A DNA stretch of 64,000 nt. It comes from Calditrichota bacterium (lineage in GTDB: Bacteria > Calditrichota > Calditrichia > Calditrichales > Calditrichaceae). The notes under the pieces are model-generated. The model searched no databases, was not told the origin of the DNA, and was given only the letters and a program-made list of their open reading frames with translations. Position 1 is the stretch's first letter. Every line of letters starts with the position of its first letter. Both the position numbers and the translations under genes were made by a program. Shown one piece after another: positions 3,185-38,427 of this stretch. The stretch covers positions 62,001 through 126,000 of the forward strand of contig JAJRSO010000020.1 in NCBI GenBank assembly GCA_024278755.1. The letters run 5' to 3'.

Positions 3185-3193
3185 TGCCTTGCT

Positions 3194-4870: not shown

Positions 4871-5900
4871 CGGTCTCTCCGGAAATATATCGGAAAATCT
4901 GAATCCGGGCGTTATAACTATCTACCACATATATCCGATCTTCAGGATCAATGTAAATTCCTACAGGTAGCCAAAACTGCCCCTGGCCATGGCCCTGTTC
5001 TCCGAAATTAAATAAAAAATCCCCCTCCTTATCAAATATCTGCACAGTGTTAAACAGGGCGTCTACTACATAAATATTGCCCTGCGAATCTGTGGCGATT
5101 CCCTTGGGTCTGGCAAAATAACCGGTTGCATCGCCATTTTCGCCAAAAATGGAAACAACTTCTCCATCTCCGTTAAAAACCTGTACACGGAAGTTCATGG
5201 AGTCTACCACATAAACCATTCCCGCCTCATCTATCCAGATAAATGTAGGAAAATTAAACTCTCCGGTGGCTACTCCTCGCTGGCCTATCGTTTTTATTAA
5301 TGTACCCCGCATGGTGAATATGGAAATTCTGTGGGCATTTGTTTCTACGACCCAAAGTTCATTTTTCTGATCTAAAAAAGCGATACCGGTCGGACGATTG
5401 AGTGGACAAGTTTCATTTAATGCATACGGTTGTTTTTTTTGCCGGTTCGAATAAAAAACTTTTCCCAATTTGGAATCTGTAAAATAAATTCCCCCGCTAT
5501 TAGATTGACAAAGCCCCACCAGCGAGATAAAGGGATAGGCCTCGGTTCGTTTAAACTGGGTAATATTCCCCAAATTGTTTTCGGCAAAAACAAGTGCGCT
5601 TTTTCCCTGATCCAAAATACACAGGGAGCCGTTGTTCATTGTGATGGCAGAAATTGGGCGCAGAAGTTTTAAATCGGTCTTTCCGAAAATAAACTGTCCC
5701 AGTTTACCGGTTAGGCTACTCTTGCTATTATTTCCTCCCAGCACTGATATTTGTTTTAACCATTGAATGACAGGACCGTCTGATTTTGTTTTATCCTGAG
5801 GCCAAATGAGATCCTTTGCCTGTCCGGAAAAAATAAATCCCAATAAAACTATGAGACAAACAGATATACGAAATACGTTTTTTTTTGAATAAGACATCAT
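4863..5900 (-). CDS. Secreted NHL-repeat beta-propeller protein
   Basis: This 345-residue protein has a signal peptide (core ISVCLIVLLGFIFSG) and NHL/6-bladed-propeller repeats from about 75 to the end. The repeat pattern is RPTGIAFLDQ-n-WVVET-n-HRI, FNFPTFIWID, YFARPKGIATD, WLPVGIYIDP. It is close in sequence to the protein at 31.4 kb, sharing the stretches GEFNFPTFIWID and GYFARPKGIATD. Both precede a 12-haem cytochrome gene. No enzyme motif is visible, so a scaffold or partner role for the cytochrome is inferred. It is the first gene of the four-gene minus-strand operon. Two ATGs (5900 and 5897) follow GGAG at 5907-5910. Confidence 0.9.
   Translation of the reverse strand: MMSYSKKNVFRISVCLIVLLGFIFSGQAKDLIWPQDKTKSDGPVIQWLKQISVLGGNNSKSSLTGKLGQFIFGKTDLKLLRPISAITMNNGSLCILDQGKSALVFAENNLGNITQFKRTEAYPFISLVGLCQSNSGGIYFTDSKLGKVFYSNRQKKQPYALNETCPLNRPTGIAFLDQKNELWVVETNAHRISIFTMRGTLIKTIGQRGVATGEFNFPTFIWIDEAGMVYVVDSMNFRVQVFNGDGEVVSIFGENGDATGYFARPKGIATDSQGNIYVVDALFNTVQIFDKEGDFLFNFGEQGHGQGQFWLPVGIYIDPEDRIYVVDSYNARIQIFRYISGETDE
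5557..5574. repeat. 18-bp sequence shared with the 6.3-kb intergenic region
   Basis: TGGGTAATATTCCCCAAA occurs here inside the NHL gene and again, identically, at 6333-6350 in the intergenic region. It contains the GGG-N8-CCC palindrome. It could be an intragenic operator about 350 bp downstream of the operon's promoter, allowing DNA looping, or chance coding sequence (Leu-Gly-Asn-Ile-Thr). Confidence 0.5.
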
Positions 5901-6513: not shown

Positions 6514-8766
6514 ATGAACCTGGGGATGAGTTTAATCGTAGGGGCCTTTACCGCCAGCATCGTATCGGCTATGTTTTATTTTTTAGCTTCTAAAGAAGAG
6601 TTGCAAGCAAACAGGAAAGCGCCTGTCCATAAGTCAGGAAAATTTAAGAATGCCCGTTATGCTTTTTTTGTTAGTATAGGATTAATAACGATTGCATCGC
6701 TCTATTTTTACTACCTGATTTTTACACATCAGTTTCAGGTAAAATATATTTATCAGTATTCTTCGAGAGATTTACCGTTTGGATTTTTATTGTCCACGTT
6801 TTGGGCGGGGCAGGAAGGCTCTTTTTTATTTTGGACCTTATGTATCTCTTGGTTAGGGCTTATCTTTATAAAAAGAGCCAAACGCTATGAAAACAGTGGA
6901 ATGGTCGTTGTAAATCTTATTCAGGCCATTTTTCTTTTTATTTTAATCAAAGCGAGTCCTTTCTCTTTGTATGAAGGAACGATACCTTCCGACGGGGCCG
7001 GATTAAATCCGTTGCTTCAGAATTTCTGGATGGTCATTCATCCGCCAATCCTCTTTGTAGGATATGCGGCGGCTACCTTTCCATTTGCCATTGCCATGTC
7101 TGCAATGATAAAAAAAGAATATAAGGATTGGGTTGCACACACCTTTCCATGGGCCCTTGCTGTTTCCCTTACCTTAGGCGCCGGCATTATAATCGGTGCA
7201 TTTTGGTCCTATGAAACCTTGGGTTGGGGAGGTTACTGGGGATGGGATCCGGTTGAGAATTCATCGTTAATTCCCTGGCTTACAACATTAGCGCTTTTTC
7301 ACGGACTTCTTGTGGAAAGAAGAACCGGCGCGTTAAAAAAGACCAATATTGTTTTGGCGTTAACAACTTTTATTCTGGTAATTTATGCTACGTTCTTAAC
7401 GCGGAGCGGCGTTCTCGCAGATTTCTCGAATCACTCTTTTCAGGATTTGGGGATAAGTAAACTACTTGTTCTTTTTCTTTTGCTTAGTGTCCTCTCTGGT
7501 CTTGGCCTTTTCCTGATACGTTATAAAAATATTCCGGTGAACACTCTCGATTTTTCTTCTGTTAATAAAGAAAATGTCGTATTTAGCGGGATGCTTATTT
7601 TAATTGCTTCGGCAACGCTGACTATCCTCGGCACTTCATCCCCGCTGATTACCACCTGGTTTGGCAATCCTTCGCAGGTGAATATCTCTTTTTATAATAC
7701 CGTAAATCTGCCTGTTGGAATCGGAATGGCTTTGTTGATCGGCTTTGTTCCGTTTTTACGTTGGAAAGAGAAAAGTGTTTTTAAAACATTAAAAAAAGCG
7801 ACCCTTTTGCTATTCATTTCTGCTATCGGAATGTTTCCGGCCTTCTTTTTAGGTATGCACTCGGTTGAAATTTTAATCTTTTTTGCACTGACCGTTTTTA
7901 CAATTCTTAGTAATTTAGTCGGATTTACCGCCTGTATAAAACGAGGCTGGAAACAGATAGCCGCGCCTCTGACCCATTTAGGCCTTGGTTTGATGTTTAT
8001 TGGCATAATTGTTTCGGGCAGTTTAACACAAACCGAACGCGTATTACTGATTAAGAATGAAACAAAAACGGTTTTTGAAAAAAAGTTAACTTATTTAGGT
8101 ATCCAAACCCGGCCAAACGAAAAAAACGTGGTAGAAATTAAAGTGGTTGATGGCGCCGCCGTTTATCTGGCGCATCCCCGCTTATACTTTAATAAGAATG
8201 CCGAAGGAACCATGCGTGAGCCGGATATTCAATATGGTTTGTTAAGCGATTTTTATATTGCACCGCTGGAATTACGAAAAACAGAAGTCTCTGCGGATGG
8301 CTCGACTCTTATTCTAAAAAAAGAACAATCGAAATATATTTACGGATTTAAAGTGCATTTTCATGCCTTTCGCATGCAGCAGGATACGGTTACAAACGCC
8401 TTTACAATTGGCGCCGATTTAAATATTGAAAGCGGAACAAACGCATATCAGCTTACCCCTTCCATTAGGATAGGCAACAGCGGAAGGGTATCCGTTCCGG
8501 TTAAACTGCGTCTGGAGAGCGGCACAGAAATTAAAATACTGCTTGCCTCCTTCAATGCCAATACCAAAGAAGTGGTGCTTAAATTCGAAGGCTTTGCAGC
8601 GTCGTCGGGGAAAAAACAGGAAAATACAGAGCAGCTGATAGTGGAAGTAAGCAAAAAACCATTTATGAACGTACTCTGGCTGGGGACAATACTGATAATT
8701 TCCGGCACCCTAATTGCTTTTAAAACCAGTAAAAAAAACAATACACAGACAGCAGGAGTCGTATGA
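6514..8766 (+). CDS. ccmF: Cytochrome c haem lyase subunit CcmF
   Basis: This 750-residue polytopic membrane protein belongs to the CcmF/NrfE (haem-handling) family. It carries the tryptophan-rich signature WGWDPVENSS at about 242-251, within a longer GWGGYWGWDP stretch, for periplasmic haem binding. An HPP(I/L)LFVGYA segment (about 175) and a C-terminal periplasmic domain with a last TM helix (about 725-745) follow family form. It works with CcmH-type proteins in System I to attach haem to apocytochromes. No other ccm gene is in the window, so this may be a copy dedicated to the cytochromes of its operon, or the others lie elsewhere. The next gene's start overlaps its stop by 4 nt. Confidence 0.92.
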   Translation: MNLGMSLIVGAFTASIVSAMFYFLASKEELQANRKAPVHKSGKFKNARYAFFVSIGLITIASLYFYYLIFTHQFQVKYIYQYSSRDLPFGFLLSTFWAGQEGSFLFWTLCISWLGLIFIKRAKRYENSGMVVVNLIQAIFLFILIKASPFSLYEGTIPSDGAGLNPLLQNFWMVIHPPILFVGYAAATFPFAIAMSAMIKKEYKDWVAHTFPWALAVSLTLGAGIIIGAFWSYETLGWGGYWGWDPVENSSLIPWLTTLALFHGLLVERRTGALKKTNIVLALTTFILVIYATFLTRSGVLADFSNHSFQDLGISKLLVLFLLLSVLSGLGLFLIRYKNIPVNTLDFSSVNKENVVFSGMLILIASATLTILGTSSPLITTWFGNPSQVNISFYNTVNLPVGIGMALLIGFVPFLRWKEKSVFKTLKKATLLLFISAIGMFPAFFLGMHSVEILIFFALTVFTILSNLVGFTACIKRGWKQIAAPLTHLGLGLMFIGIIVSGSLTQTERVLLIKNETKTVFEKKLTYLGIQTRPNEKNVVEIKVVDGAAVYLAHPRLYFNKNAEGTMREPDIQYGLLSDFYIAPLELRKTEVSADGSTLILKKEQSKYIYGFKVHFHAFRMQQDTVTNAFTIGADLNIESGTNAYQLTPSIRIGNSGRVSVPVKLRLESGTEIKILLASFNANTKEVVLKFEGFAASSGKKQENTEQLIVEVSKKPFMNVLWLGTILIISGTLIAFKTSKKNNTQTAGVV

Positions 8767-10271
8767 AAATCAGATTGCCAAGATCGACCCATAACTGGGT
8801 TTCCGTTATCGGAGCGGTTATTGCTATCATTGCCTTATTTATGATAGTTTTTCTCTTTCTTGTTTCCGTTATAATGAACGAAAGCAGTTCTTATCTTGGT
8901 TTGATAATTTATATTTTATTGCCCACGATAATGATAATCGGATTGATACTTATTCCCATAGGAATGTTTATAAACATAAAAAAAAGAAACGGGCGCGATA
9001 CCGAAGAGCAGGAAGCCTGGCCGAAAATTGATTTAAACAATGAACGGCATCGGAACGCTTTTTTTATATTCAGTTTCGGAACGACCATTTTATTGCTGAT
9101 TTCCGCCTTAGGCAGTTATGGGGCCTTTCATTATTCCGAATCCGTTGAATTTTGCGGTACAACCTGCCATAAACTGATGATTCCGGAATATACGGCTTAC
9201 AAACCTTCGTCACATGCCCGGGTTGCCTGTGTCGAGTGCCATGTAGGGCAGGGCGCCGACTGGTATGTGCGATCCAAATTATCCGGCCTGTATCAGGTAT
9301 ATGCCGTGCTAACAAATAATTATCCAAAACCGATTCCCACACCCATTCATAGTTTACGTCCGGCACGGGAAACCTGCGAACGCTGCCACTGGCCGCAAAA
9401 GTTTTATGCTCAAAAACTACGCCTCGAGCGTCACTATTTGAATGATGAAAAAAATACCGTTTGGGATATTCAGCTTAAAATGAAAATCGGAGCAGAGCTG
9501 GCCGCCAAAGGTTTGAAAACGGGTATTCACTGGCATATAAATCCCGATGTGCGGATTGAATATATTGCAGCGGATAAAAAAAACCAGCAATTGCCCTGGG
9601 TACGCTATACCAATATCCGTACGGGTAAAATTACGGTGTACCAGGATAAAGAGGCCAAATTTGATACCCTGCAAATTAGACAAAGCGCTGTTCGCAAGAT
9701 GGATTGCATCGATTGCCATAACCGTCCGTCGCATAAATACAATCCGCCTACCATTTTCATAAACGAGGCGCTTACAGCCGGTATGATTCCGTCTGAACTT
9801 CCGGGAATAAAGGATTTGGCAATGGATATTTGTTCAAATGAATTTGGGTCAACCGATTCGGCGATGCAATTTATCCGAAACGAAATTCAGGATAAATACA
9901 ATTCGGAATATCCAGAAATTGTTGCCGAAAAGCCATTTTTAATTGAACAGGCCATTCTTGGATTTCAGGAAGCATTTAAGCGAAATATCTTTCCGGAAAT
10001 GAAAGTACGCTGGGACGCCTATCCCGCCAATATCGGTCATATGGAATTTAATGGCTGTTTTCGCTGCCACGATGATAGACATGTGAGTAACGATGGCAAA
10101 AAAATAAGTAAAAACTGTAATCTATGTCATACCATTATGGCCCAGGGCTCGCCGGATAATTTGGAATATGCGGTGGCTGGCAAGCCTCTGAAGTTTGTTC
10201 ATCCGGCAGAGATAGACGAAGATTTAAATGAAGTGCTGTGTACCGATTGTCATACGGGGTTAAATCCCTAA
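8763..10271 (+). CDS. Seven-haem NapC/NirT-type inner-membrane cytochrome, ImcH-like
   Basis: This 502-residue protein has three predicted TM helices (about 14-38, 44-70, 101-120) followed by a NapC/NirT haem domain. The first haem site is a CX3CH (FCGTTCHK), followed by CVECH, CERCHWP, CIDCHNRPSH, CFRCH, CNLCH and CTDCH, seven in all. Motifs such as PSSHARVACVECHVG and SLRPARETCERCH are typical of the family that includes Geobacter ImcH, a seven-haem quinol oxidase needed for high-potential external acceptors. The likely role is quinol oxidation at the inner membrane with transfer to periplasmic cytochromes. Its AGGAG lies in the end of ccmF and the genes overlap by 4 nt. Confidence 0.9.
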   Translation: MKIRLPRSTHNWVSVIGAVIAIIALFMIVFLFLVSVIMNESSSYLGLIIYILLPTIMIIGLILIPIGMFINIKKRNGRDTEEQEAWPKIDLNNERHRNAFFIFSFGTTILLLISALGSYGAFHYSESVEFCGTTCHKLMIPEYTAYKPSSHARVACVECHVGQGADWYVRSKLSGLYQVYAVLTNNYPKPIPTPIHSLRPARETCERCHWPQKFYAQKLRLERHYLNDEKNTVWDIQLKMKIGAELAAKGLKTGIHWHINPDVRIEYIAADKKNQQLPWVRYTNIRTGKITVYQDKEAKFDTLQIRQSAVRKMDCIDCHNRPSHKYNPPTIFINEALTAGMIPSELPGIKDLAMDICSNEFGSTDSAMQFIRNEIQDKYNSEYPEIVAEKPFLIEQAILGFQEAFKRNIFPEMKVRWDAYPANIGHMEFNGCFRCHDDRHVSNDGKKISKNCNLCHTIMAQGSPDNLEYAVAGKPLKFVHPAEIDEDLNEVLCTDCHTGLNP

Positions 10272-10344: not shown

Positions 10345-10893
10345 ATGAAAGTTCGTTTTAGTTTTATTTCGATTGTTTTGGTTCTGTTTCTCAGTTCGGC
10401 GGTTTTTGCCCAGGGAAATTCGTTTAAATATATTGGCGCCAAAAAATGTAAGATGTGTCATAATAAGAAAAAAGACGGCGCACAGTATAAAATATGGGCG
10501 GATGGCCCGCATGCCAAGGCAATGGAGTCGCTGTCCGGTGAAAAAGCGCTTAAATATGCTAAGGAAAACGGAATTGCAGATCCCGCAAAAGAAGCAAAAT
10601 GTTTAAAATGCCATTCAACGAAAGCTTCGATTGACGCCTCTCTGGTTGATCCCAAGGGTAAACTGACCATGGAAGAAGGCGTTTCCTGCGAATCATGCCA
10701 TGGACCGGGCAGCGTGTATAAAAAGAAAAAAATTATGAAGGATCATGAATTAGCCCTAAAAAGCGGCTTAATAGTTCCGGATGAAAAAACCTGTATAAAA
10801 TGCCATACGGAAAAAGACAATCCCTTCTTTAAGGCTTTTAATTTTAAAGAGCGGGTTAAAAAAATTGCGCATCCGATTCTGTCCAAAAAATAA
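10345..10893 (+). CDS. Periplasmic tetrahaem cytochrome, c554-like
   Basis: This 182-residue protein has a signal peptide (core ISIVLVLFLSSAVFA) and four CxxCH motifs: CKMCH, CLKCH, CESCHGPGS and CIKCH. The CESCHGPGS block with spaced histidines resembles the cytochrome c554 family. It follows the ImcH-like gene and so probably takes electrons from it as a soluble shuttle. The ATG at 10345 follows TAAGGAGAAG. A hairpin terminator lies downstream at 10915-10967, so the upstream transcript may end here. Confidence 0.88.
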   Translation: MKVRFSFISIVLVLFLSSAVFAQGNSFKYIGAKKCKMCHNKKKDGAQYKIWADGPHAKAMESLSGEKALKYAKENGIADPAKEAKCLKCHSTKASIDASLVDPKGKLTMEEGVSCESCHGPGSVYKKKKIMKDHELALKSGLIVPDEKTCIKCHTEKDNPFFKAFNFKERVKKIAHPILSKK

Positions 10894-11013: not shown

Positions 11014-11454
11014 ATGTCCATTAATCGACGTAATTTTTTAAACATCTTTCTCGGCACCGGATTTTTGGGTTGGGTGGGAAGCATACTCTATCCATTGATT
11101 TCTTATCTGATTCCTCCCAAAGTTTCCGAGGCAAAGATACAATCCGTAAAGGCGGGAATTGCGGCCGATTTTCCATCCAACAGTGGAAAGATTATTAAAT
11201 TTGGACGTAAACCGGTTATTTTAATAAAAACAAATAAAAACAAATTTGTTGCCTTATCGGCTACCTGTACACATCTGGACTGCATCGTTCGGTATCGCGC
11301 CGATACAAACCAAATATTGTGCGCCTGCCACAATGGTTTATATGACTTAAAAGGACGCAATATCTCCGGCCCTCCGCCCCGGCCGCTCACCGCGTTTAAT
11401 GTAAATATCCTTAACGAAGAAATCATTATTTCAAAACCGTCCGAAATGAGTTGA
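11014..11454 (+). CDS. Rieske [2Fe-2S] protein of a cytochrome bc-type complex
   Basis: This 146-residue protein has an N-terminal anchor (about 8-34) after NRRNF, a partial Tat-like signal. The Rieske boxes are C85-T-H87-L-D-C90 and C103-A-C105-H106. C85, H87, C103 and H106 are the expected cluster ligands, and C90/C105 the stabilising disulfide. It is the quinol-oxidising iron-sulfur subunit paired with the cytochrome b encoded directly downstream. Length is normal for small bacterial Rieske proteins. Confidence 0.93.
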   Translation: MSINRRNFLNIFLGTGFLGWVGSILYPLISYLIPPKVSEAKIQSVKAGIAADFPSNSGKIIKFGRKPVILIKTNKNKFVALSATCTHLDCIVRYRADTNQILCACHNGLYDLKGRNISGPPPRPLTAFNVNILNEEIIISKPSEMS

Positions 11455-11456
11455 AA

Positions 11457-12539
11457 ATGAATAAAAAGAGTGACGATCGTTTACTAAACTGGCTGGACGA
11501 GCGCTTTAATATTAGTCCGTTTTTAGATTTTATGAAGCATAAACAAGTTCCGATTCATAAACACTCGGTTTGGTATTATATGGGCGGCGTAGCCTTATTC
11601 CTGTTTATGGTACAGGTTTTAACCGGTATTTTGCTTTTGCTGTATTATCAACCCGGAGTGGACAGCAGTTATGAAAGTATTCGCTTTATTGTTACAAAAG
11701 TTAATTTTGGCTGGCTAATCCGTTCCTTGCACAGTTGGTCGGCCAATCTTTTGGTTCTGTTTATCTTTATTCATATGTTTAGCACTTTTTTTACCGGCGC
11801 TTTTAAAAACCCCAGAGAACTAACCTGGCTTTCGGGATTTATTCTGCTGGCGCTGGCTCTTGGCTTTGGTTTTAGCGGATATCTTCTTCCCTGGAATGAA
11901 CTTGCTTTTTTTGCAACAAAAGTGGGAACCGATATCACCGGCGCCGTTCCTTTGGTTGGAAAGGCCATTAAAATATTTCTGCGGGGAAGCGAAGATGTAA
12001 CCGGTGGAACGCTTTTACGTTTTTATGCTTTTCATGTGGCCATTATACCGGCAATTTTTACATTCGTTCTGAGTGTGCATTTATTGTTTATTCAGCGCCA
12101 GGGCATGCACGAACCCGATTTTTATAAAAAATTACCGCGTGAGAAACAAAAAACAATCGCTTTCTTTCCTGATTTTTTTCTGAAAGATATTCTCCTGTGG
12201 CTGATTGTTTTAAATATTTTACTCTTTCTTGCCGTGTTTTTCCCCTGGGATATAGGTATAAAAGCCGATCCTTTTGCTTCTGCGCCACAGGGTATCCGCC
12301 CCGAATGGTATTTTATGTTTATGTTTCAGACACTTAAGCTTTTGCCGGCCCATATTCTGTTTATTGAAGGGGAAATTGTAGGCGTACTGATGTTTGGCGT
12401 TGGCGGCGTCGCTTGGATGCTGCTTCCTTTTTGGGCGGGGAAAATAAATGCACAGATAAGAACCCGGGTTTTAACAACTTTAGGGCTTCTTGTGGTTGCG
12501 TTTATACTTGTTATGACTATCATCGGTTATGTTATGTAA
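11457..12539 (+). CDS. Cytochrome b of a bc-type quinol-oxidising complex
   Basis: This protein of about 360 residues carries both the b6-like N-terminal four-helix part and the subunit-IV-like C-terminal part. The Qo-site motif PEWYF (in IRPEWYFMFMFQTLKLLP) and paired histidines in the second and fourth helices for two b haems are visible. The chosen ATG at 11457 lies 2 nt after the Rieske stop; a TTG at 11451 overlapping that stop (TTGA) would add two codons. With the Rieske protein and the following nine-haem cytochrome it forms a three-subunit complex in which a multihaem protein replaces cytochrome c1. Confidence 0.93.
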   Translation: MNKKSDDRLLNWLDERFNISPFLDFMKHKQVPIHKHSVWYYMGGVALFLFMVQVLTGILLLLYYQPGVDSSYESIRFIVTKVNFGWLIRSLHSWSANLLVLFIFIHMFSTFFTGAFKNPRELTWLSGFILLALALGFGFSGYLLPWNELAFFATKVGTDITGAVPLVGKAIKIFLRGSEDVTGGTLLRFYAFHVAIIPAIFTFVLSVHLLFIQRQGMHEPDFYKKLPREKQKTIAFFPDFFLKDILLWLIVLNILLFLAVFFPWDIGIKADPFASAPQGIRPEWYFMFMFQTLKLLPAHILFIEGEIVGVLMFGVGGVAWMLLPFWAGKINAQIRTRVLTTLGLLVVAFILVMTIIGYVM

Positions 12540-12552
12540 AGGAATTTCTATA

Positions 12553-13830
12553 ATGTCAGTATTGAAATTACAACCATATAAAATTTTTACGGTACTCATA
12601 ACAGGGATGGTTTTGCTCGGTCCGGGATTGGTTTCCGGAGAGAAACAATTAGCGTATACGTCCAATACCTGTCTAGCCTGCCACAAAGATGAAGAGGTGC
12701 TGCCGGAAGATTTTTTTAAACAGGATATTCATTTTATCTCCGGAATTTTGTGTGCCGATTGCCACGGCGGCGATTCTGCGGAAGAGGACGAAGAGCTGGC
12801 CATGAGCGCCAGAAGAGGATTTACCGGTGTGCCTTCGAAACGTCAGATTCCTGCGTTTTGTGGTAAATGTCATTCCAAAATCGAATATATGCGTGTATAC
12901 CGGCCGCGAATCGCCACCGACCAGGTGCAGCAGTATCTTCAGAGTGTTCATGGTAAAAAATTAGGACAGGGAGATGAGAAGGTTGCCGATTGTACAAGCT
13001 GCCATTCGGCCCATCGTATTCTGCCGGCCAGCGACCCGCGTTCTTCCACCCATGCCTTAAACGTACCGCAGACATGCAAAAAATGCCACAGTAACAGCAT
13101 TTACATGAAAGAATACAATATCCCTACGGATCAATTTGAGCAATATGCAAAAAGCGTACATGGTATGGCTTTAATGGATAAAGGCGATTTAGCATCGCCG
13201 GCTTGTAACGACTGCCATGGCAATCACGGAGCAACTCCCCCCGGGTTGGAATCCATATCGCATGTTTGTGGAACGTGCCATCTTAATAATATGCAATATT
13301 TTTCAGACTCTAAAATGGGAGAAGCCTTTGTAGAGCAAAAACTGCACGGCTGTGAAGAATGCCATGGAAATCACGGGATTCAGAGCACTTCCGATAACCT
13401 GCTTGGAATTGGTGAAAAAGCCATTTGTATGAATTGTCATGAACAGGGTGATGATGGATACATAACTGCAGACGCCCTGCATAAAATGCTGCGGCGGGTT
13501 GTCTCTTTATATGATTCGGCAAAAGTGAAACGTAACAAAGTGCAGCAAATAGGAATGGATGATATCGAAATCGGTTTTTTACTTCAGGAGGCAAAACAAA
13601 GTATTGTCCAGGCGCGAACACTTATCCATACGTTCGATACGGTAAAAGTAGGGCAGAAAACGGCGGAAGGATATAAAAAAACAAAGCAGGCGGTTATTTT
13701 GGCCGATAATACGATAAATGATTTTTATGTACGGCGTTATGGCTTTGGTGCGGCCACTTTTTTTATCACCATTCTCATCGTCGCCCTGTTCTTTAAAATA
13801 CGTGAAATTGATAAACAAAAACGGGCGTGA
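12553..13830 (+). CDS. Nine-haem membrane-anchored cytochrome c, partner of Rieske/cytochrome b
   Basis: This protein of about 425 residues has a signal peptide (MSVLKLQPYKIF start) and nine CxxCH motifs: CLACH, CADCHGG, CGKCH, CTSCHSAH, CKKCH, CNDCHGNHG, CGTCH, CEECHGNHG and CMNCH. A helical tail ends in a C-terminal TM anchor (about 396-418, GAATFFITILIVALFF). It probably takes electrons from the Rieske centre and passes them to periplasmic carriers. An upstream in-frame ATG at 12529 lies inside the cytochrome b gene; the ATG at 12553 has AAGGA at good distance and gives a proper signal peptide. Confidence 0.9.
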   Translation: MSVLKLQPYKIFTVLITGMVLLGPGLVSGEKQLAYTSNTCLACHKDEEVLPEDFFKQDIHFISGILCADCHGGDSAEEDEELAMSARRGFTGVPSKRQIPAFCGKCHSKIEYMRVYRPRIATDQVQQYLQSVHGKKLGQGDEKVADCTSCHSAHRILPASDPRSSTHALNVPQTCKKCHSNSIYMKEYNIPTDQFEQYAKSVHGMALMDKGDLASPACNDCHGNHGATPPGLESISHVCGTCHLNNMQYFSDSKMGEAFVEQKLHGCEECHGNHGIQSTSDNLLGIGEKAICMNCHEQGDDGYITADALHKMLRRVVSLYDSAKVKRNKVQQIGMDDIEIGFLLQEAKQSIVQARTLIHTFDTVKVGQKTAEGYKKTKQAVILADNTINDFYVRRYGFGAATFFITILIVALFFKIREIDKQKRA

Positions 13831-13835
13831 ATGTT

Positions 13836-15086
13836 ATGAACGTTTTTAAACAAAAACAAGCTTATTTCGCTATCGGTCCAATTTTAATTCTATCTGTTCT
13901 TCTGCCCTGGATTGCCCGAGGTCAGAGTAAGATACCCAAAAAAACCGTTTATTATAAAAATATTACGAACGGAATAAAAGGGCCGTTACGTATAATGGCG
14001 GCGTCCGAAAATGCCATCTATGTAACCGATTTTACGAAAAAAAGTATCTGCCGATACGACTCCAGCGGCCATTTATCAACCGAAATTAAACTTCCTTTTT
14101 CTCCTTTGTGTATTGCTTCGTATAATGAAACAAAATTGTATGTCGGCGATGCGCAGAGCGGCAGAATAAATATCATCGACAGCAGCGGCACAGTGTTAAA
14201 AACCTTTGGCGCTTTAAAGCAACCCTCCGACGCTGTATTTGACGATACTCATCTTCTGTATGTGGTTGATAGTAAAAAGGGACATATCGCCGTTTATAAT
14301 CAGGATGGTGTTTTTCAACGATCTTTTGGCGAAGACGTACTGAACTTTCCTACCGGCATTGCTTTTGACCGGCAAAATCAGCGCATACTTGTTGCGGAAC
14401 ACGGAGGCATAACGCCCCCCGATAGTTCCGGCCCCACGGCAAAAATCCACCTGTTTGGGAAGAATGGACAATGGATAACCTGTTTTGGCGATTATGGCAA
14501 CAAGGCCGGACGTTTTACGCGCATACAGGGAATGACGGTGGACCCATTCGGAAGAATATTTGCCGTTGATTCCTATCAGGGCGTTGTAACGGTTTTGGAT
14601 GAACAGGGAGAATTCCTGGGGAAAATTGGGGAATACGGCGCCGCTCCGGGCCAGTTGCGTTTACCCATGGATGTTTTGCTTGATGCGCATAACCGGCTGT
14701 GGGTGACCGCGCTAAATAACGGCAGCATAGATATTTTTGATATAAATACGCTGCCTACCGCTATCGGGAACGACCCGGAACCTTTGTTACCGTTGCAAAG
14801 CCGGTTGCTACAGAACTTCCCCAATCCGTTTAATCCGGGAACCCAAATCCCGTTTACTATCGGGAACGATGAAACGGTTACCATCCATATTTATAATTTA
14901 ACGGGTCAAAAAGTGCGGACGGTTCATCTGGGATTTTTAAATCGCGGTGAATACCTGACAAAAGGAAAATCATATTACTGGAATGGAAAAAATGACGCCG
15001 GCAAAAATGTAGCCAGCGGATTTTATTTATATGAACTGCGTACAGACAGCTTTAGCAAAGTACGGCGTATGTTATTACTTAAATAA
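13836..15086 (+). CDS. Secreted NHL-repeat protein with type-IX-like sorting domain
   Basis: This protein of about 416 residues has a signal peptide (core FAIGPILILSVLLPWIA), NHL propeller repeats (about 60-305) and a C-terminal domain of about 90 residues. That domain starts QNFPNPFNPGTQIPF and ends in FSKVRRMLLLK, the pattern of type-IX-secretion or FlgD-like sorting domains. Secretion to the cell surface is therefore likely. It directly follows the nine-haem cytochrome; a GTG at 13827 that overlaps the preceding stop (GTGA) is an alternative start. A structural or docking role for surface cytochromes is inferred. Confidence 0.87.
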   Translation: MNVFKQKQAYFAIGPILILSVLLPWIARGQSKIPKKTVYYKNITNGIKGPLRIMAASENAIYVTDFTKKSICRYDSSGHLSTEIKLPFSPLCIASYNETKLYVGDAQSGRINIIDSSGTVLKTFGALKQPSDAVFDDTHLLYVVDSKKGHIAVYNQDGVFQRSFGEDVLNFPTGIAFDRQNQRILVAEHGGITPPDSSGPTAKIHLFGKNGQWITCFGDYGNKAGRFTRIQGMTVDPFGRIFAVDSYQGVVTVLDEQGEFLGKIGEYGAAPGQLRLPMDVLLDAHNRLWVTALNNGSIDIFDINTLPTAIGNDPEPLLPLQSRLLQNFPNPFNPGTQIPFTIGNDETVTIHIYNLTGQKVRTVHLGFLNRGEYLTKGKSYYWNGKNDAGKNVASGFYLYELRTDSFSKVRRMLLLK

Positions 15087-15113: not shown

Positions 15114-18100
15114 ATGAAGCGAATAAAAAAAATAATCTTTTTATGTATTTTACTTACCGGCTTAAGCAGTATTATTCCAAAATATTTAACAAGCCAGGCT
15201 CGGCAAGGCGCGGTACAGAATGATTCGGATTTGCAAAAAATCACAAAGCAATTAATGGATAGTCCGCATTGGGGTAACGGTATTAGCTGCGGTTCCTGCC
15301 ATGTAACGCACAATAGCCCCGGCGCTCAGTTAAGCAGTGTTGCAGGGAATGCCAATCTTTGTATGAGTTGTCATAATCCGGCCGGAATGGCCAGTGCAAA
15401 ACCATTTTCGGAAGCGGATAAAGCCCGGCCGGGTATTTCCGGGACCTCCCATGCATGGGAAGCCCCTGCCGAGAATACGCGATTCGAAACTCAGCTTCCC
15501 GCCGATCCGCAAATGTCTGCCCGGATAATGGAAGGAAACATTGTCTGTTCAACTTGTCACGATCAGCATGATCAAACTTACACGCCGTTTCTGCGGGCCG
15601 CAAATTATCAAAACGCATTGTGTAAAGAGTGCCATAAAATCCGTAATGTAGGTAGTTACAGAGACAGCTCGGATTATAAAGGCAGTCATCCCGTTGGCGT
15701 TGTATATCCCGATGCAAATGACCGTTTTTTCAGCGCACCTCAGGACACAAATCTTACACTTGTCGATCCTGATCGGGTGGAATGCACCACCTGCCACGGG
15801 GTTCACTATTCCGATTCCGGTGGCGCAAACGGAGGCCAGGGAGATGGGAATATATTAAAAGCAGCCAATGATTTTACGCTTTGTGAATCCTGCCATACAT
15901 ATACTTCACACGAGGGCATGGATTGCTTAACATGTCATCAGCCGCATAATCCCAATAAAACAAATATATTTATGGTGCGGGATACGATATCCACGCCGAA
16001 CAGCGGAAGCCGTTTAGCGGTGTTTACTTCGGAAACAGGGCAAAATTCATTTGCGGATGGCGATGCGGTTTACGACGGTATTTGTGAGGTGTGCCATACG
16101 GAAACCGATCATTTTAGAAACGATGGTACCGCCCCGGATCAAAACCATTTGGGAATGGGCGGACAAGCCGGTGAAAATTGTACTTCCTGCCATCCGCACG
16201 AAAACAGTTTTAAGCACGGCGGTGCGGGTTCGGGTTGTGAAACCTGCCATGGCCATGACGCCGGTTATGAATATGAACCGGGGCTTTTTTGTGAGGGAGA
16301 AGGAACCGTGCAAAGCCATTCCACACATACCGAAAACGACAGTGACGATCAAAAAGGCCCCTTTATTACTTGTACGGCCTGCCACGATACCAGTAACTAT
16401 CCCTATTTTATTTCCGGTAACGATTTAAACGGAGACGGAAAGTTTAATCTTTCGGAAACCGATGTATGCAATACCTGTCACAGTTCCGAAGGCAGTTATG
16501 ACGGAATAAATGATTTGCAAATTGGAGCAAAAGAAAATTGGGAAAACGGAATTTATGAAGGCAATACATTAATTAGCAGTAAAGAAAAATGGTGTGCAAC
16601 CTGCCACGACGAAGTTCCGGCAAACAGCCGGCAGAATGGTAGCGGAGCCGATGCGCCTAATGTAATCGGCCATGAAACAGACGACTATATTTATGGAACC
16701 GGCTGGGGCTTTTACGAAACGGGTCACGGACTCCCTGCCGATCGGTTTTATCCGGCCAGCGGAAATATCACCGCGGGCGCCGGTTTAAACTGCGAAAGCT
16801 GCCATGACTTGTCTTTAAAACATATCGATCATGTGGATCGAACGTTTGACTGTACCGGCGGTTGTGATCCGTCTGAGTATCAGCAATCGTACCGTCTAAA
16901 ACTAATTGACGGGCAATATCCCATGGAAATTCCTTTATCTAAAGGAATGGGGCCCTCTAATAATACAAGTTCGCAATTCCGGCTCTGTTATAGCTGTCAT
17001 GATTCGGGTCCGTTTCTTAATTCAGGAAATATGAACACAAACCTTGTTACCGATGGTTCAAACCGGCATGCCTATCATTTAAATAACAACCACCTGCGCT
17101 ATCCCGCCGATTATGATTATAATGGTTCCTATAACAGCCGAATGACCTGTGTGGTTTGTCATAATGTGCATGGCTCTTATCGGTTGGCAATGGTACGTAC
17201 CGGAGAACTGATAAACAGGGAACCCGGATTACGAATCTGGTATAATAATGATTTGGCCGTGAGTTACGTTTCCTCCAAACCCTATCCGCCCGATCCCGAA
17301 GATGTGCCGCTCTCGGCAAGCGAAGGGACTTTATGGCGTCCGGGTGATTCCGGGAATCTGTGTTCAAATTGCCATGGTAGTCCGAATATCTATAAAGAAT
17401 ACCGGGCGCCTTTTCAAAATGTGGAACAGATACCGATTCTTAGCTGGACAGGTGAATTTGCCTATACAACCGATGGAGTAAATCCTGATAACGGCTCAGC
17501 GGAAAGTGCGTTTCAGTTCCGAGTCGATTATACCGATTTAAATAATGATATTCCGGCTCCAATTCAACTTTGGGTTGATCAAAATGATGATGGCGATTAT
17601 GATGATACCGGTGAAAAAATAGATATGGATGCAGTTAACAGCGGCGACAACAGTTATTATGATGGAAAACGGTATAGCCAAACCATCGTTCTTAGCAAAG
17701 CGGGGGATAATGTTTTTAACTATCGTTTCTACGCTTCCGACAATACCGAAGCAAGCGGCGAGCCAACACAGAACCAAACGGTAACTGTTACGAACAATGG
17801 TCCTCTCCTCAGCTGGACGGATGAATCAGGCTATGTAAATGACGGCGTAAATCCCGATATTGGCGGTAACGGCGCGTCTTATGAGTTTCGTGTTGACTAT
17901 ACGGATGCGGATAACGAAATACCGTCATCCATTGAGGTTTGGGTAGATGAAAATGATAACGGCCTGTTTGAGGCCTCCGAAAAATTCAATATGAATCCTG
18001 TGGACGGGACAGATCTGGATTATAGCGACGGCAAACGATTTACGCGCACGCTTACGCTTTCATTTACCGGAGATGGTGTTTTAAACTATCGCTTTTATGC

Positions 18101-19802
18101 ATCGGATGGCGAAGACCCTGCAGAAGGTGAACCTGCAAATACTCATACGCTGACGGTCTCATCCTCTGCCAACAATCCACCCACGCTCGACTGGGAGGTA
18201 AGCGCATGCCGTCCAGCGGGCGTGAAACCAACCCGCGGCGCTAATGATGCGGAATATGAGTTTTTAGTAAAATACACCGATCCCGACAATAATTTTCCTT
18301 CTGCATCGGGCGGCATTCAGGTATGGATTGATGGAAACGACAACGGCCTTTATGAGGAGACAGAAAAATATAATCTGAGTGCGGATGATCCTTCCGATGC
18401 GGATTGCACGGATGGTAAATTATATTCGACCATCAGGACACTCGCTTATGTAGGAGACGGCAGACTGATTTACCGTTTCTTTGCCAGTGACGGTAGTGAC
18501 CGGGCCAAAGGAGAACCGGTTACGGGAGATACGGTAGTTGTGATTAAAGCCCTAAAGGTCAGACCTGCAGGCGGTACAGGATGGTACAGCACAATCCAGG
18601 CTGCCGTTGACGCATCCTCCGACGGAAGCAGCATTGTCGTTTACGATGGCACGTATGCGGAAGATGTCGTTCTAAACGGAACCCCTAACCGAACGCTTCT
18701 TTCGGCCTGCGGTGCGCGTGTGACCATCGTATCGGGCAGCGTTCAGGCACTGCGTTACAACAACAGTGATAATTGTGTGTTGGATGGATTTTCTTTTACA
18801 AACAGTGACTATGGTATGTATGTGAACGGCGGTTCGCAGGTAACCATAAAAAATTGTCAGGTATATGGAAATGCGTATGGAATTTATCTCAATAATGGCG
18901 CAAACCCGGTTAATATCCTGAATACCGAAATATATAGCAATACAACAAGAGGTATTCACAGCAACGGTTCGGCTACGTCATCTGTAATTACCGGTTGTGA
19001 CGTCTATTCGAATAGCGGTTCCGGAACAGGCAGCGCTATGTATCTGAATTACGGGACGCATCATATTGAATCATCCACATTCAGAGACAATACCAATTCC
19101 GGTGAAGGCGCCGGTCTGGTTTTTAACGGAACCGACAGTACCACCACCGTGACCAATACCCTCATTAGGAATAATAATTCAACGGCAGCGCGCGGCGGCG
19201 GTATGTATTTTGGCAACGAGGCCAAACCGGTATTTGACAAATGTACAATCTCGGGAAATATAGCGTCAGGCGGCGGTGGCGGAATTTATATAAATAGCAG
19301 TTCGGCGCCAACCTTTAAAAATTGCATTTTTAACGGCAATAGTTCGAATACGGGCGGCGCTATTTATATTAACAGTACCGGAGTAAACTTAATAAATTGT
19401 ACGGTGACGGATAATCATGCCACCTCGGGAGACGGAGGAGCGATCTATTTTAACAACGGAACTTTAATTATCCGGAATAGTGTTTTCTGGAATAATTCCG
19501 CTACGGGTTTGGGAAACAATATCGGTAAATCCAATACCGATGCAACGGCGGTTCATATTACCGATTCCGATATCAGCACGAGTTCTTACTGGATATACAA
19601 TGGAAAAGAGTGGTGGGATTATCAAAATAATATTGATCCGGCCCGGGATCCGCTATTTAACAGCGCTAGTGATTTCCATATTCAGGCCGGTTCTCCGGTG
19701 GTCGATCGGGCGAATGCCGCCTATGCTCCGGCTGACGATATAGACGGTGATAGCCGGCCGCAGGGCACTGCCCCCGATATGGGAGCGGATGAATATAAAT
19801 AA
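15114..19802 (+). CDS. Giant fusion: 17-haem cytochrome, Ig-like repeats and right-handed beta-helix
   Basis: This 1562-residue protein has a signal peptide and three regions. Residues about 58-755 hold 17 CxxCH motifs, from CGSCHVTH to CSNCHGS. Residues about 773-1140 hold three Ig-like repeats marked by GVNPD, FRVDYTD and VWVD-N-DNG patterns, which may bind calcium. Residues about 1145-1550 form a right-handed beta-helix with pectate-lyase-like repeats (YSNTTRGIHSNG, GGGIYINSSSAPTF) and a TAPDMGADEYK ending. I found no sorting domain at the C-terminus. The design suggests a surface protein that carries electrons and also adheres to, or spans distance from, the cell. Whether the beta-helix has enzyme activity cannot be told. 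Confidence 0.88.
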   Translation: MKRIKKIIFLCILLTGLSSIIPKYLTSQARQGAVQNDSDLQKITKQLMDSPHWGNGISCGSCHVTHNSPGAQLSSVAGNANLCMSCHNPAGMASAKPFSEADKARPGISGTSHAWEAPAENTRFETQLPADPQMSARIMEGNIVCSTCHDQHDQTYTPFLRAANYQNALCKECHKIRNVGSYRDSSDYKGSHPVGVVYPDANDRFFSAPQDTNLTLVDPDRVECTTCHGVHYSDSGGANGGQGDGNILKAANDFTLCESCHTYTSHEGMDCLTCHQPHNPNKTNIFMVRDTISTPNSGSRLAVFTSETGQNSFADGDAVYDGICEVCHTETDHFRNDGTAPDQNHLGMGGQAGENCTSCHPHENSFKHGGAGSGCETCHGHDAGYEYEPGLFCEGEGTVQSHSTHTENDSDDQKGPFITCTACHDTSNYPYFISGNDLNGDGKFNLSETDVCNTCHSSEGSYDGINDLQIGAKENWENGIYEGNTLISSKEKWCATCHDEVPANSRQNGSGADAPNVIGHETDDYIYGTGWGFYETGHGLPADRFYPASGNITAGAGLNCESCHDLSLKHIDHVDRTFDCTGGCDPSEYQQSYRLKLIDGQYPMEIPLSKGMGPSNNTSSQFRLCYSCHDSGPFLNSGNMNTNLVTDGSNRHAYHLNNNHLRYPADYDYNGSYNSRMTCVVCHNVHGSYRLAMVRTGELINREPGLRIWYNNDLAVSYVSSKPYPPDPEDVPLSASEGTLWRPGDSGNLCSNCHGSPNIYKEYRAPFQNVEQIPILSWTGEFAYTTDGVNPDNGSAESAFQFRVDYTDLNNDIPAPIQLWVDQNDDGDYDDTGEKIDMDAVNSGDNSYYDGKRYSQTIVLSKAGDNVFNYRFYASDNTEASGEPTQNQTVTVTNNGPLLSWTDESGYVNDGVNPDIGGNGASYEFRVDYTDADNEIPSSIEVWVDENDNGLFEASEKFNMNPVDGTDLDYSDGKRFTRTLTLSFTGDGVLNYRFYASDGEDPAEGEPANTHTLTVSSSANNPPTLDWEVSACRPAGVKPTRGANDAEYEFLVKYTDPDNNFPSASGGIQVWIDGNDNGLYEETEKYNLSADDPSDADCTDGKLYSTIRTLAYVGDGRLIYRFFASDGSDRAKGEPVTGDTVVVIKALKVRPAGGTGWYSTIQAAVDASSDGSSIVVYDGTYAEDVVLNGTPNRTLLSACGARVTIVSGSVQALRYNNSDNCVLDGFSFTNSDYGMYVNGGSQVTIKNCQVYGNAYGIYLNNGANPVNILNTEIYSNTTRGIHSNGSATSSVITGCDVYSNSGSGTGSAMYLNYGTHHIESSTFRDNTNSGEGAGLVFNGTDSTTTVTNTLIRNNNSTAARGGGMYFGNEAKPVFDKCTISGNIASGGGGGIYINSSSAPTFKNCIFNGNSSNTGGAIYINSTGVNLINCTVTDNHATSGDGGAIYFNNGTLIIRNSVFWNNSATGLGNNIGKSNTDATAVHITDSDISTSSYWIYNGKEWWDYQNNIDPARDPLFNSASDFHIQAGSPVVDRANAAYAPADDIDGDSRPQGTAPDMGADEYK

Positions 19803-28677: not shown

Positions 28678-30999
28678 TTAGCGCACAAGAAGCATCTGCT
28701 TTACACTGCTCTTTCCTGCAATATTAAGCTTGTAAAAATACATTCCGCTTGAAACATTCTGACCGAAATCATTGGTTGCATTCCAACGGAAAGTGTATTT
28801 TCCGGCGCCCAGAACACCATTGAATAACGTTTTAACACGCTGTCCTAAAATATTATACACATCAAGTCTTACCTGTTGAAATTGTTTTCCCTGAATGTAT
28901 AGCGGAATTGTTGTGGCCGGGTTAAACGGATTGGGGTAATTCTGTTGTAAATCAAACCCGGAAGGCAGTTCTGCAAGAGCACTATTTCCCACGGACGTTA
29001 CAGAAAGAGCGGCGCCCAGTTTTACCTGTACGGCATCCGACGAAACATCATCCTGCTGTGCCCATACGGTTACTTCATCTCCAGCCGAATAAACGCTTAA
29101 ATCAACCGGTTGATAAGTTTCATTTAGGATAATGGTGGACGCATTTATTCGGATTTCCTGCCCACCGACTATCAAAAGATTACCGGAAAAACCATTTAAA
29201 GTTGCACTGTACACACTCATACCGGGAGAGTCTTCCAGCTTTATTCGCACAGCAAGGTACGTGCCGTCGCTCTGAATGTACGCTTTTACTTCTACATACT
29301 GTCCGGCAGACAAATCACTTAACAACAGAGTCGCGCCGGTATAATCGTGAATGGTGGTTGAATCATCAATAAAAATCGTAATTCCACCGAGCATCAAAAA
29401 ATCGGTTCCAATGCTATCAATAGATGCAGATAATTCGATACGGCCAATTTTTTCATCTTCCAGCTTTATGCGTTTCGCCAGCCATGAACCGTCATCCAGG
29501 CGGATTGCTTTAATTTCCACAAAGTCGGCTATGTTGATTTGACTGAGTGTGACGGGCAACCGGTTAATATCCAGAATAATAGTTGCGTCGTCGACCATAA
29601 AGGTTACCTGATTAACCTGTATCCAATCTGTTCCTAACGAATCCACATATCCTTCAAATTCAACGGAGTACTCATAAAAGGATTTAATTTTAATTTGAGA
29701 GGCAAAAACACTACCGTCATCCTGCAGATAGCCTTTTACTTTTACACGTTGTCCTTTTTCCAAATCGGAAAACGCAAGAGTACTGTTCCTATGGCCTTTA
29801 ATTTCACTTGTCTCATCGATATAGATCATATATCCGAACACGATAATAGCGTTGTTTGCCACCGAATCGATAATGCCGGTAAAATGTATGGAATTCATAT
29901 ATTCTTCTTCGATTTCGATTTTACGGGCAAGGTAGCTGCTATCGGCCTGAATGGCGGCTTTAATCTCTACGGACATACCTTGCGTCAATTCATTTAAACT
30001 ACCTTTTCGGTGGTTACCAAACATGACAACGGTTTGGGCATTGGTATAAAAGGTAACACCGTTAACAATTACATAATCGACGCCTAAAGAATCAATGATT
30101 CCTTTAAATTCCATCTGATGTTCATCGGCGTTACAACACTGATTCATTATTTTTATTTCTTTGGCCCATAAGGTGTCATCTGCCTGTTTACGGGATTCTA
30201 TTTTTACAAATAAGCCGGGCGTGAGATCGGAAAGACTCATATAAGAATGATTGTCACCCTTAATTTCGGTTTGATCATTCACAAAAAACCGTAGTCCGTT
30301 TACATCAATAAAATCAATACCTACCGAATCGATAGTTCCCGAGTATTCCATGTCATACTCATCGTGGTGTGTGTTTTTATCTTCCAGTTTGATTCTACTT
30401 GCCAGGTAGCTTCCATCCTCCAGTTCATATGCTTCCACTTCAACATAATCTCCGATTTGCAGGTCCGAATAAGAGAAGGTGTTATGGCGCATATCGCTTA
30501 CGACCGTGTTGGAATCTGTCCGGAACACATAACCGTCGACTATCAGGCTGTCGGCGCCGATAGAGTTGATATATCCTTTAAGTTCAAACTCTTTGCCGTC
30601 GCCGGCCGGCCGGTATTGATAGGTGAATTGCGCTTCATATTCCGCTTCGTTTCCGTTATGATCTTTAAGTTTTGCTTCCCAGTCCCATTCACCTGTCTCC
30701 GGAAGACCGTCAAGCACGAATGTCGCTTCAAAATATCCGTTGAATTTATTCGTAAACTGTCCTTCAAAATCAGACATATGAGAGCGTTTAATCATCCATT
30801 TCATTTTCATCATATTATTAACATTTAAATTTGGCGCAAATACATTCATATACAAAGTGTCGCCTTCATTGAAATGGTATAGACTGCTATCCGCCCCGGT
30901 TTGATTGGAAAGCACATAGTAGCCCTGGGCAAATGTGCTTGTAAACGGCAGCGCCGAAAACAGCAAAGCCAAAAGCATCGCACGTAGATTCTTGTTCAT
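28678..30999 (-). CDS. Secreted protein of seven DUF5666-like repeats with sorting domain
   Basis: The 773-residue protein has a signal peptide (core AMLLALLFSALPFTSTFA), an N-terminal Ig-like domain (about 30-130), seven DUF5666-like repeats of about 73 residues (about 133-650), and a C-terminal sorting domain starting QNYPNPFNPATTIPL. Each repeat reads roughly GxIDSxGxDxxxVNG, then a strand, then LSDLxxGxxVEVKA, DGSxLAxRIKLED. This OB-like fold is common in secreted proteins of unknown role. GGAGGT precedes the ATG, and a good sigma-54-like promoter lies upstream at 31049-31064. Confidence 0.88.
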   Translation of the reverse strand: MNKNLRAMLLALLFSALPFTSTFAQGYYVLSNQTGADSSLYHFNEGDTLYMNVFAPNLNVNNMMKMKWMIKRSHMSDFEGQFTNKFNGYFEATFVLDGLPETGEWDWEAKLKDHNGNEAEYEAQFTYQYRPAGDGKEFELKGYINSIGADSLIVDGYVFRTDSNTVVSDMRHNTFSYSDLQIGDYVEVEAYELEDGSYLASRIKLEDKNTHHDEYDMEYSGTIDSVGIDFIDVNGLRFFVNDQTEIKGDNHSYMSLSDLTPGLFVKIESRKQADDTLWAKEIKIMNQCCNADEHQMEFKGIIDSLGVDYVIVNGVTFYTNAQTVVMFGNHRKGSLNELTQGMSVEIKAAIQADSSYLARKIEIEEEYMNSIHFTGIIDSVANNAIIVFGYMIYIDETSEIKGHRNSTLAFSDLEKGQRVKVKGYLQDDGSVFASQIKIKSFYEYSVEFEGYVDSLGTDWIQVNQVTFMVDDATIILDINRLPVTLSQINIADFVEIKAIRLDDGSWLAKRIKLEDEKIGRIELSASIDSIGTDFLMLGGITIFIDDSTTIHDYTGATLLLSDLSAGQYVEVKAYIQSDGTYLAVRIKLEDSPGMSVYSATLNGFSGNLLIVGGQEIRINASTIILNETYQPVDLSVYSAGDEVTVWAQQDDVSSDAVQVKLGAALSVTSVGNSALAELPSGFDLQQNYPNPFNPATTIPLYIQGKQFQQVRLDVYNILGQRVKTLFNGVLGAGKYTFRWNATNDFGQNVSSGMYFYKLNIAGKSSVKQMLLVR

Positions 31000-31048
31000 G
31001 TGTTACCTCCGATTGGTTATAAAACTGTGATTGAATTACGGTTGTTCT

Positions 31049-31240: not shown

Positions 31241-31378
31241 ATCGATTATCACAACTATTTTTCTTTTGTGTTGATTCTTATTTGATTATTAAGGAAATTA
31301 TTCACGTAATTCTAGCAATAGGAAGGATAGGCTTTTTTTGTGATTGCAAGAGTAAAAAATAAACAAAAATGTGTTTTT

Positions 31379-32395
31379 ATGTTAAAATACAGGACGCTTA
31401 GAATCCTTACACTTTTTGCGTTAACCGGATTGGTTTATATGATTATTTGCGGAACTGCTTTTGCCGTTGCGGTGAATGCCGATAAAGCGTTTCCCTATTC
31501 CGTTAAATGGGTCGGAGCCTTCTCCGGTTCTAAAGATTTTAAGCAAAAAGAAGGTTTCTTTTCCGGCATTTTAAAACTGATAACCGGTTCCGATGCATTT
31601 ACCCTGAAACGCCCCGTTGCCGTATGGAACAGTCCGGACGGAAATTTACGTGTGCTCGATCAGGAATTGCAGTCACTCCTATTAATCCGGCAAAACGACC
31701 GCGACATTAAATCGGCTTCTTCCTTTCCCTCTCTGGTTTCTATGTGCATGACAAAAAGCGGTGTTTTGTATTTTACAGACTCCAAACGAAATGGGGTGTT
31801 TATTCAGGAGACTCCGGATAAAACACCCCATTTGTTTAATAAAAATGTTTCGTTAAATCGTCCCACAGGAATTGCATTTCTGGAGCAAAAACAGGAAATA
31901 TGGGTTGTGGAGACGGGCGCACATCGCATTGCTATTCTGGATAGTAAAGGGAAGTTCCTTCGCTATATTGGTAAAAGAGGCATTTCCGCCGGTGAATTTA
32001 ACTTTCCTACTTTTATATGGATTGATACCAGTGGCACTGTATATATTGTGGATTCCATGAACTTTCGAGCCCAGATTTTAAGCAGTTCCGGTCTTGTGCT
32101 CACTGTTTTCGGGGAGGCCGGAGATGCCAGCGGCTACTTTGCGCGTCCCAAAGGGATTGCCACCGATACATTTGGCCATATCTATATTGCAGATGCTCTG
32201 TTTCATACGGTTCAGGTGTTTGATCAAAAAGGAAACTATCTCTATCATTTTGGCGAGCAGGGAAGCGCCAAAGGTAAATTTTGGATGCCTATGGGCATAT
32301 TTATCGGGGAGGACGATCGCATTTTTGTTGCCGATAGTTACAACCACCGTATTCAGATTTTTAAGATACAACAAAGGGAATCAAATGACGGGTAG
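31379..32395 (+). CDS. Secreted NHL-repeat protein, paralogue of the one at 4.9-5.9 kb
   Basis: This protein of about 338 residues has a signal peptide (core ILTLFALTGLVYMIICGTAFA) followed by NHL propeller repeats. It aligns along most of its length with the protein at 4863-5900, with shared stretches such as LNRPTGIAFLEQ, GEFNFPTFIWID and GYFARPKGIATD. Both sit directly before a 12-haem cytochrome gene, so the pair duplicated as a unit. A GTG at 31340 with an upstream AGGAAGGA would add 13 residues. It overlaps the cytochrome gene by 11 nt. Function as a cytochrome partner is inferred. Confidence 0.88.
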   Translation: MLKYRTLRILTLFALTGLVYMIICGTAFAVAVNADKAFPYSVKWVGAFSGSKDFKQKEGFFSGILKLITGSDAFTLKRPVAVWNSPDGNLRVLDQELQSLLLIRQNDRDIKSASSFPSLVSMCMTKSGVLYFTDSKRNGVFIQETPDKTPHLFNKNVSLNRPTGIAFLEQKQEIWVVETGAHRIAILDSKGKFLRYIGKRGISAGEFNFPTFIWIDTSGTVYIVDSMNFRAQILSSSGLVLTVFGEAGDASGYFARPKGIATDTFGHIYIADALFHTVQVFDQKGNYLYHFGEQGSAKGKFWMPMGIFIGEDDRIFVADSYNHRIQIFKIQQRESNDG

Positions 32396-34079: not shown

Positions 34080-34107
34080 TTAAACAATTAACATACGGAG
34101 GTACCTC

Positions 34108-34725: not shown

Positions 34726-34771
34726 ATACGTTATTCCGTTTTATCGATAAAATTGCGGGTTTCCGAACACT

Positions 34772-35845: not shown

Positions 35846-35846
35846 T

Positions 35847-36449: not shown

Positions 36450-36453
36450 AACC

Positions 36454-38415: not shown

Positions 38416-38427
38416 GAGAGATCCAAA

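Follow-up and report, generated by a model that had tools for sequence, protein, structure and literature searches.

A 17-haem cytochrome with a C-terminal Ig-like and β-helix tail from a Calditrichota bacterium, and its relatives in other bacterial phyla

Surface multihaem cytochromes and β-helix surface proteins have been described in several systems that resemble the protein considered here. The type C multihaem cytochrome (MHC-C) of ANME archaea is described as a very large multihaem cytochrome containing a pectin-lyase-type (β-helix) domain; it was proposed to function in extracellular electron transfer (EET) and partner recognition, and its relative MHC-B has a dedicated CcmF encoded beside it (Chadwick et al., 2022, PMC9012536). 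In Geobacter-type conduits (OmcS/OmcX/OetABI), a surface multihaem protein is found together with porin-cytochrome clusters and with quinol-linked cytochromes of the inner membrane (PMC10553843). Two further points of comparison are the OmcA/MtrC decahaem family and the choice-of-anchor Q β-helix surface proteins (NF041518).

The window analysed is a stretch of 64,000 nucleotides from a Calditrichota contig. One of its genes encodes a protein, referred to here as the focal protein, that like MHC-C carries a multihaem chain and a β-helix in one polypeptide. The helix is N-terminal in archaeal MHC-C and C-terminal in the focal protein, whose homologues and relatives are bacterial. The Ig-like repeats of the focal protein are not mentioned for MHC-C in the available portion of PMC9012536, and the likeness considered here is one of architecture. 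Adding a tip to a chain of haems is not a new concept, because multihaem–β-helix fusions have already been described in ANME archaea. None of the literature searched, which included few subscription journals or preprints, described the C-terminal Ig-helix block of these bacteria, its occurrence in three phyla or the swapping of tips, and searches combining multihaem with NHL/Rieske, NHL or laminin G returned no paper on this family. The focal protein resembles the Geobacter-type conduits in its genomic setting of porin-cytochrome-like clusters and quinol-linked cytochromes, whereas an Ig–β-helix tail is not described for Geobacter-type surface cytochromes in the available text of PMC10553843, and no sequence relation to them was found beyond short haem-motif matches. 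With OmcA/MtrC, the focal protein shares a generic haem-domain match (PF22113) and, as proposed here, a surface reductase role; membership was rejected, as TIGR03507 gave no match in the focal protein and only 25–28 bits in the Bacteroidales homologues, against a cut-off of 209. DmsE decahaem (TIGR03508, 46.6 bits against a cut-off of 192.2) and the NosD copper protein (TIGR04247, 29.6 against 300) were likewise rejected. With the choice-of-anchor Q proteins the focal protein shares the helix and the terminal cap, but no anchor follows the cap.

Table 1. Features of the focal gene and of its neighbourhood, in window coordinates.
Feature	Position	Strand	Remarks
Focal ORF	15114–19802	+	1562 aa, ATG to stop, no internal stop
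Putative Sec-type signal peptide, residues 1–28	15114–15197	+	No lipobox; direct reading: KRIKK, hydrophobic IIFLCILLTGL, then LTSQA
N-terminal ten-haem module, residues 47–390	15252–16283	+	Ten CxxCH
C-terminal heptahaem module, residues 391–765	16284–17408	+	Seven CxxCH
Three Ig-like repeats, residues 766–1145	17409–18548	+	About 125 residues each; one EF-hand-like loop in each
Right-handed β-helix, residues 1146–1562	18549–19799	+	PF13229, E = 5.9e-22, best stretch 1203–1348; TIGR03804
Choice-of-anchor Q cap, residues 1520–1561	19671–19796	+	NF041518, 32.7 bits (cut-off 25)
NHL β-propeller protein with type IX sorting tail	13827–15086	+	Directly upstream of the focal gene
Nine-haem cytochrome	12529–13830	+	C-terminal hydrophobic (TM-like) segment
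Cytochrome b/b6-type subunit	11451–12539	+	NCBIfam b6 and ExtP-like matches, below cut-off
Rieske-type iron-sulfur protein	11014–11454	+	Motif CTHLDC...CACHNGLYD, direct reading
Tetrahaem c554-like cytochrome	10345–10893	+	PF13435, 7.2e-17; 54% identical homologue in Bacteroidales islands
NapC/NrfH-type membrane cytochrome	8763–10271	+	Six CxxCH; PF03264; 49% homologue in L042
CcmF/NrfE-type haem lyase	6514–8766	+	TIGR00353, 280 bits, below cut-off of 569
σ54 response regulator (321–1709) and histidine kinase (1691–3193)	321–3193	−	Divergent; Pfam
Eleven-haem cytochrome (3194–4921) and NHL protein (4863–5900)	3194–5900	−	Similar pair in G358 and G442 islands
Porin-cytochrome-like cluster: NHL, 11-haem, 4-haem, NHL, 5-haem, 659-aa putative barrel, 13-haem	31331–39735	+	Syntenic in G358 and G442

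The initial annotation described a single chain with 17 CxxCH motifs, three Ig-like and possibly calcium-binding repeats, and a right-handed β-helix of about 400 residues, and each of these was borne out. All 17 CxxCH motifs were located within residues 59–754 (at 59, 83, 145, 170, 224, 257, 271, 324, 356, 375, 420, 452, 494, 560, 625, 679 and 750), against a mean of 0.04 and a maximum of 2 in composition shuffles. In an alignment with three related proteins (L131, L132 and the 712-aa protein of L034), none of the 17 proximal His residues was lost, and of the 23 other His residues in the haem region 18 were kept. Across 13 aligned proteins, one of them 5′-truncated and lacking some of the positions, all seven sites of the heptahaem module were kept, some of them in the form CX3-4CH, and the invariant distal His residues numbered exactly seven (402, 405, 538, 570, 652, 655 and 686). 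The number of conserved His residues is therefore what bis-His ligation of every haem would need. The AlphaFold2 model of the haem part was poor (pLDDT 38), and unusable for haem-chain geometry.

Each Ig-like repeat contains an EF-hand-like D-x-[ND]-x-[ND]-G loop (DQNDDG at 822, DENDNG at 945 and DGNDNG at 1073), three in all against 0.17 expected from shuffles (P(≥3) = 0.0018). Such loops, three in each protein, also occur in several Desulfuromonadia homologues. The repeats matched no Pfam model. AlphaFold2, applied to residues 756–1562, gave Ig-like strands for this part at low confidence (pLDDT mostly 30–60), and a Foldseek search with the Ig-helix model returned mainly Ig-like PDB entries at low TM-scores; these matches weakly support Ig-like strands and say nothing on the helix. 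The same type of repeat (LSWTGE..Y..DGVNPD.G) was also seen in non-haem proteins, some of them giant, of other genomes searched (L007, L014 and L015).

In the Pfam search, multihaem models matched the first half of the focal protein, and PF13229 (Beta_helix) and a weaker NosD match fell in its last 400 residues. The modelled core of the helix consists of regular short strands, with a pLDDT of about 80–95 over roughly residues 1290–1475. Right-handed β-helices are common in lyases, and the helix might accordingly act as an enzyme, a polysaccharide lyase or hydrolase whose activity is coupled to redox chemistry. This is very improbable: the matches are limited to the generic Beta_helix, NosD and anchor-Q models, with no enzyme family above threshold, and within the block shared with homologues the helix shows the lowest conservation, at 29–37% identity in most of them compared with 46–61% for the heptahaem module of the same proteins.

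A profile search with the haem module detected relatives in KSB1, Calditrichaeota-labelled and Bacteroidetes contigs; within the focal genome's own phylum, the module was found in that genome only, among 40 genomes. The full architecture was found in three Bacteroidales genomes (G358, G442 and G547), in proteins of 1974–1978 aa with 26 CxxCH motifs, and the heptahaem module, Ig-like repeats and helix occur in the same order in seven Desulfuromonadia genomes (G1153, twice, G1179, G958, G951, G962, G1034 and G956), these order and class names resting on the named loci behind the genome sets, Carboxylicivirga marina (L042) and Geobacter sp. (L044). Contig ends truncate some Desulfuromonadia copies; the best matches share 44–49% identity over nearly the full length. 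In the G1034 homologue (L190, 5516–16003), a TAA lies within the helix and the next frame repeats the Ig and helix sequence, possibly representing a pseudogene, a duplication or an assembly fault. A cassette profile gave no match in 395 Bacteroidia genomes, weak evidence of absence, with at most two candidates scored per genome, and a tblastn search of plasmids gave one match, to the helix only, in Runella.

Unrelated genomes from two further phyla have the same architecture, which rules out the frameshift or assembly error, joining two genes, that the initial annotation had raised as a possible refutation; the likelihood left to it is negligible. The fusion is found in G358, G442, G547, G1153, G1179, G958, G951 and G962, and the GC content is even across the module joints of the focal gene, including the boundary between haem part and tail. 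The related suggestion, that the domains might mostly be separated by a stop at that boundary, was partly confirmed: many relatives of the haem module do end there (the 712-aa protein of L034, L033, L032 and L192, among others), and ten other genomes keep the fusion. As for the proposed fusion of a β-helix to a haem wire, the fusion itself is real, but the wire is not uniform, the last seven haems, the Ig-like repeats and the helix co-occurring as a block in homologues. Judged by these comparisons, the focal design is shared by no fewer than three bacterial phyla, and in two of these phyla it lies within conserved, putatively electron-exporting gene sets.

The modules of the focal protein differ in their nearest relatives. 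Residues 47–390 share 63% identity with a KSB1 protein (L032), 53–55% with Bacteroidales proteins and 27–29% with Desulfuromonadia proteins, whereas residues 391–765 share 56–61% with Bacteroidales, 46–57% with Desulfuromonadia and only 36–39% with KSB1/Calditrichota-like proteins. The Ig-like repeats share up to 55% with Desulfuromonadia (L186/L157) and 35% with Bacteroidales. In phylogenetic trees, the N-terminal module was placed in a KSB1-type clade (99/100, in a tree without Desulfuromonadia rows), the heptahaem module grouped with Bacteroidales (95/95), and the Ig-helix part fell inside the Desulfuromonadia rows (95/95). Recombination is the simplest reading of the segment identities and trees, with unequal rates as an alternative.

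Related haem modules were also found with other tails or none. Tail-less forms occur in L034 (712 aa), L033, L032 and L105; a LamG tail was found in L104 (by Pfam) and in a 1300-aa protein of L034 (by eye only); and L106 carries a 2132-residue tail rich in cadherin-like repeats. Some Bacteroidota members have N-terminal PKD-type extensions instead, and in G053 separate genes encode related haem segments. In L034 (4181–11723), an NHL gene is followed by tandem haem paralogues, the tail-less 712-aa protein and one with a 445-aa β-rich tail (LamG-like by eye). On one Desulfuromonadia contig (G951 C150; L193, 2960–18999, and L188, 2835–12580), at least five neighbouring multihaem paralogues have differing tails, namely SBBP β-propeller/TSP3, LamG plus propeller, Ig-like and β-helix, an apparent case of tip swapping. 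Overall, these proteins seem to form a genuine family of mosaics that exchange modules, and not to have arisen by accident. A broader proposal, put forward tentatively and falling just short of an even chance, is that of a surface haem-wire family recombining across phyla, in which modules and β-rich tips (β-helix, LamG, cadherin-like and β-propeller) are shuffled, including among neighbouring paralogues, retargeting the electron outlet to different surfaces. The focal protein would then be a chimera of an N-terminal module of KSB1/Calditrichota type, a heptahaem module nearest to that of Bacteroidales and an Ig-helix part nearest to that of Desulfuromonadia.

The focal gene is the last in a same-strand run that extends from the haem lyase to the NHL propeller, and it is linked to a porin-cytochrome-like cluster and to quinol-linked cytochromes (Table 1). 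The 659-aa putative barrel of that cluster matched no Pfam model, and its porin identity is proposed from size and position. A second porin-cytochrome-like cluster lies just upstream of the window (L029, 2929–12089), beside a 926-aa protein with 19 CxxCH motifs and a membrane part. Islands in Bacteroidales G358 and G442 contain the two-component pair, the 11-haem, NHL and 4-haem proteins, the porin-like cluster, the NHL partner and the full-architecture cytochrome. The σ54 regulator is 61–62% identical to those of the G442 and G358 islands, compared with 49–51% in KSB1-type genomes, where the pair of NHL protein and cytochrome recurs with a divergent two-component pair beside it. The island was not seen around the Desulfuromonadia copies in the stretches read, and it is therefore not obligatory. 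Elsewhere in the window, the minus strand encodes a type IX-tailed protein of 774 aa that contains six DUF5666 stretches (28678–31002), and the plus strand a hybrid histidine kinase of 1712 aa whose PAS domains number about eight or more (47749–52887).

The initial annotation had also stated that the focal protein has no sorting domain and that the preceding gene has one, and Pfam and NCBIfam searches agreed on both points. No match to TIGR04183 or PF18962 was found in the focal protein, and no remnant of a sorting tail was detected downstream of the gene in the three plus-strand frames. The PorU sortase is encoded in the focal genome. In other phyla the NHL partner adjoins the haem gene or lies one gene away, with its tail present, and a type IX-like tail was seen at the C-terminus of each of the 14 NHL partners checked. 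None of the Bacteroidales and Desulfuromonadia cytochromes with an intact C-terminus has such a tail, most of them being judged by eye. Since complete homologues also lack it, the missing tail looks like a family trait; its loss from the focal protein was rejected on the same ground and on the missing remnant. Several β-helix proteins of other searched genomes run from the same anchor-Q cap into a type IX tail, whereas the focal gene ends at the cap.

Taking gene content and architecture together, the focal protein is probably a cell-surface terminal multihaem cytochrome of an EET island, its non-redox tail serving to attach or position it. Quinol electrons would enter via the cytochrome b/Rieske proteins or the NapC-type protein and pass via periplasmic cytochromes and an outer-membrane conduit to the focal protein, whose two haem modules would relay them along or away from the surface. 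The Ig-like repeats may form a stalk, probably stabilised by calcium, and the β-helix a non-redox tip for binding or packing against matrix polysaccharide, a partner cell or a neighbouring protein; the attachment to minerals, partner cells or polysaccharide suggested in the initial annotation is plausible. The NHL partner, which bears the export tail missing from the cytochrome, may help surface placement by co-export or anchoring, as we suggest.

Large tails of the Ig, LamG and helix kinds are typically seen on surface proteins, which counts against a periplasmic location of the focal protein or a homopolymeric cytochrome filament with the Ig-like repeats and helix decorating its outside. Such an arrangement would fit the missing sorting tail and the long multihaem chain, and some large extracellular Geobacter cytochromes do form filaments (PMC9473688). 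It is nevertheless unlikely: PDB sequence searches gave no clear relation to known filament cytochromes, OmcE (7tfs) being matched over a short haem-motif stretch only, and with the focal protein as single query no match was returned. The role of the tail within the surface-cytochrome reading might be narrower, that of chiefly a recognition adhesin: the β-helix would bind one particular carbohydrate or the surface of a partner cell and so bring the haem module into direct interspecies contact, a role proposed for ANME MHC-C (PMC9012536), the precedent for it. The alternation of β-helix, LamG and cadherin-like tails on related haem modules is as expected if binding specificity were swapped, but the focal protein matched no carbohydrate-binding family in Pfam or NCBIfam. 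This possibility, appreciably less likely than the general reading, would refine rather than exclude it.

Little is known about how bacteria place extracellular cytochromes with respect to minerals, electrodes or partner cells, and related haem modules with differing covalent tips offer a directly testable handle on this. The pairing of tailed NHL partners with tail-less cytochromes poses a concrete question about export. Finally, the island conserved in two phyla flags EET capacity in Bacteroidales and in KSB1/Calditrichota-like genomes.
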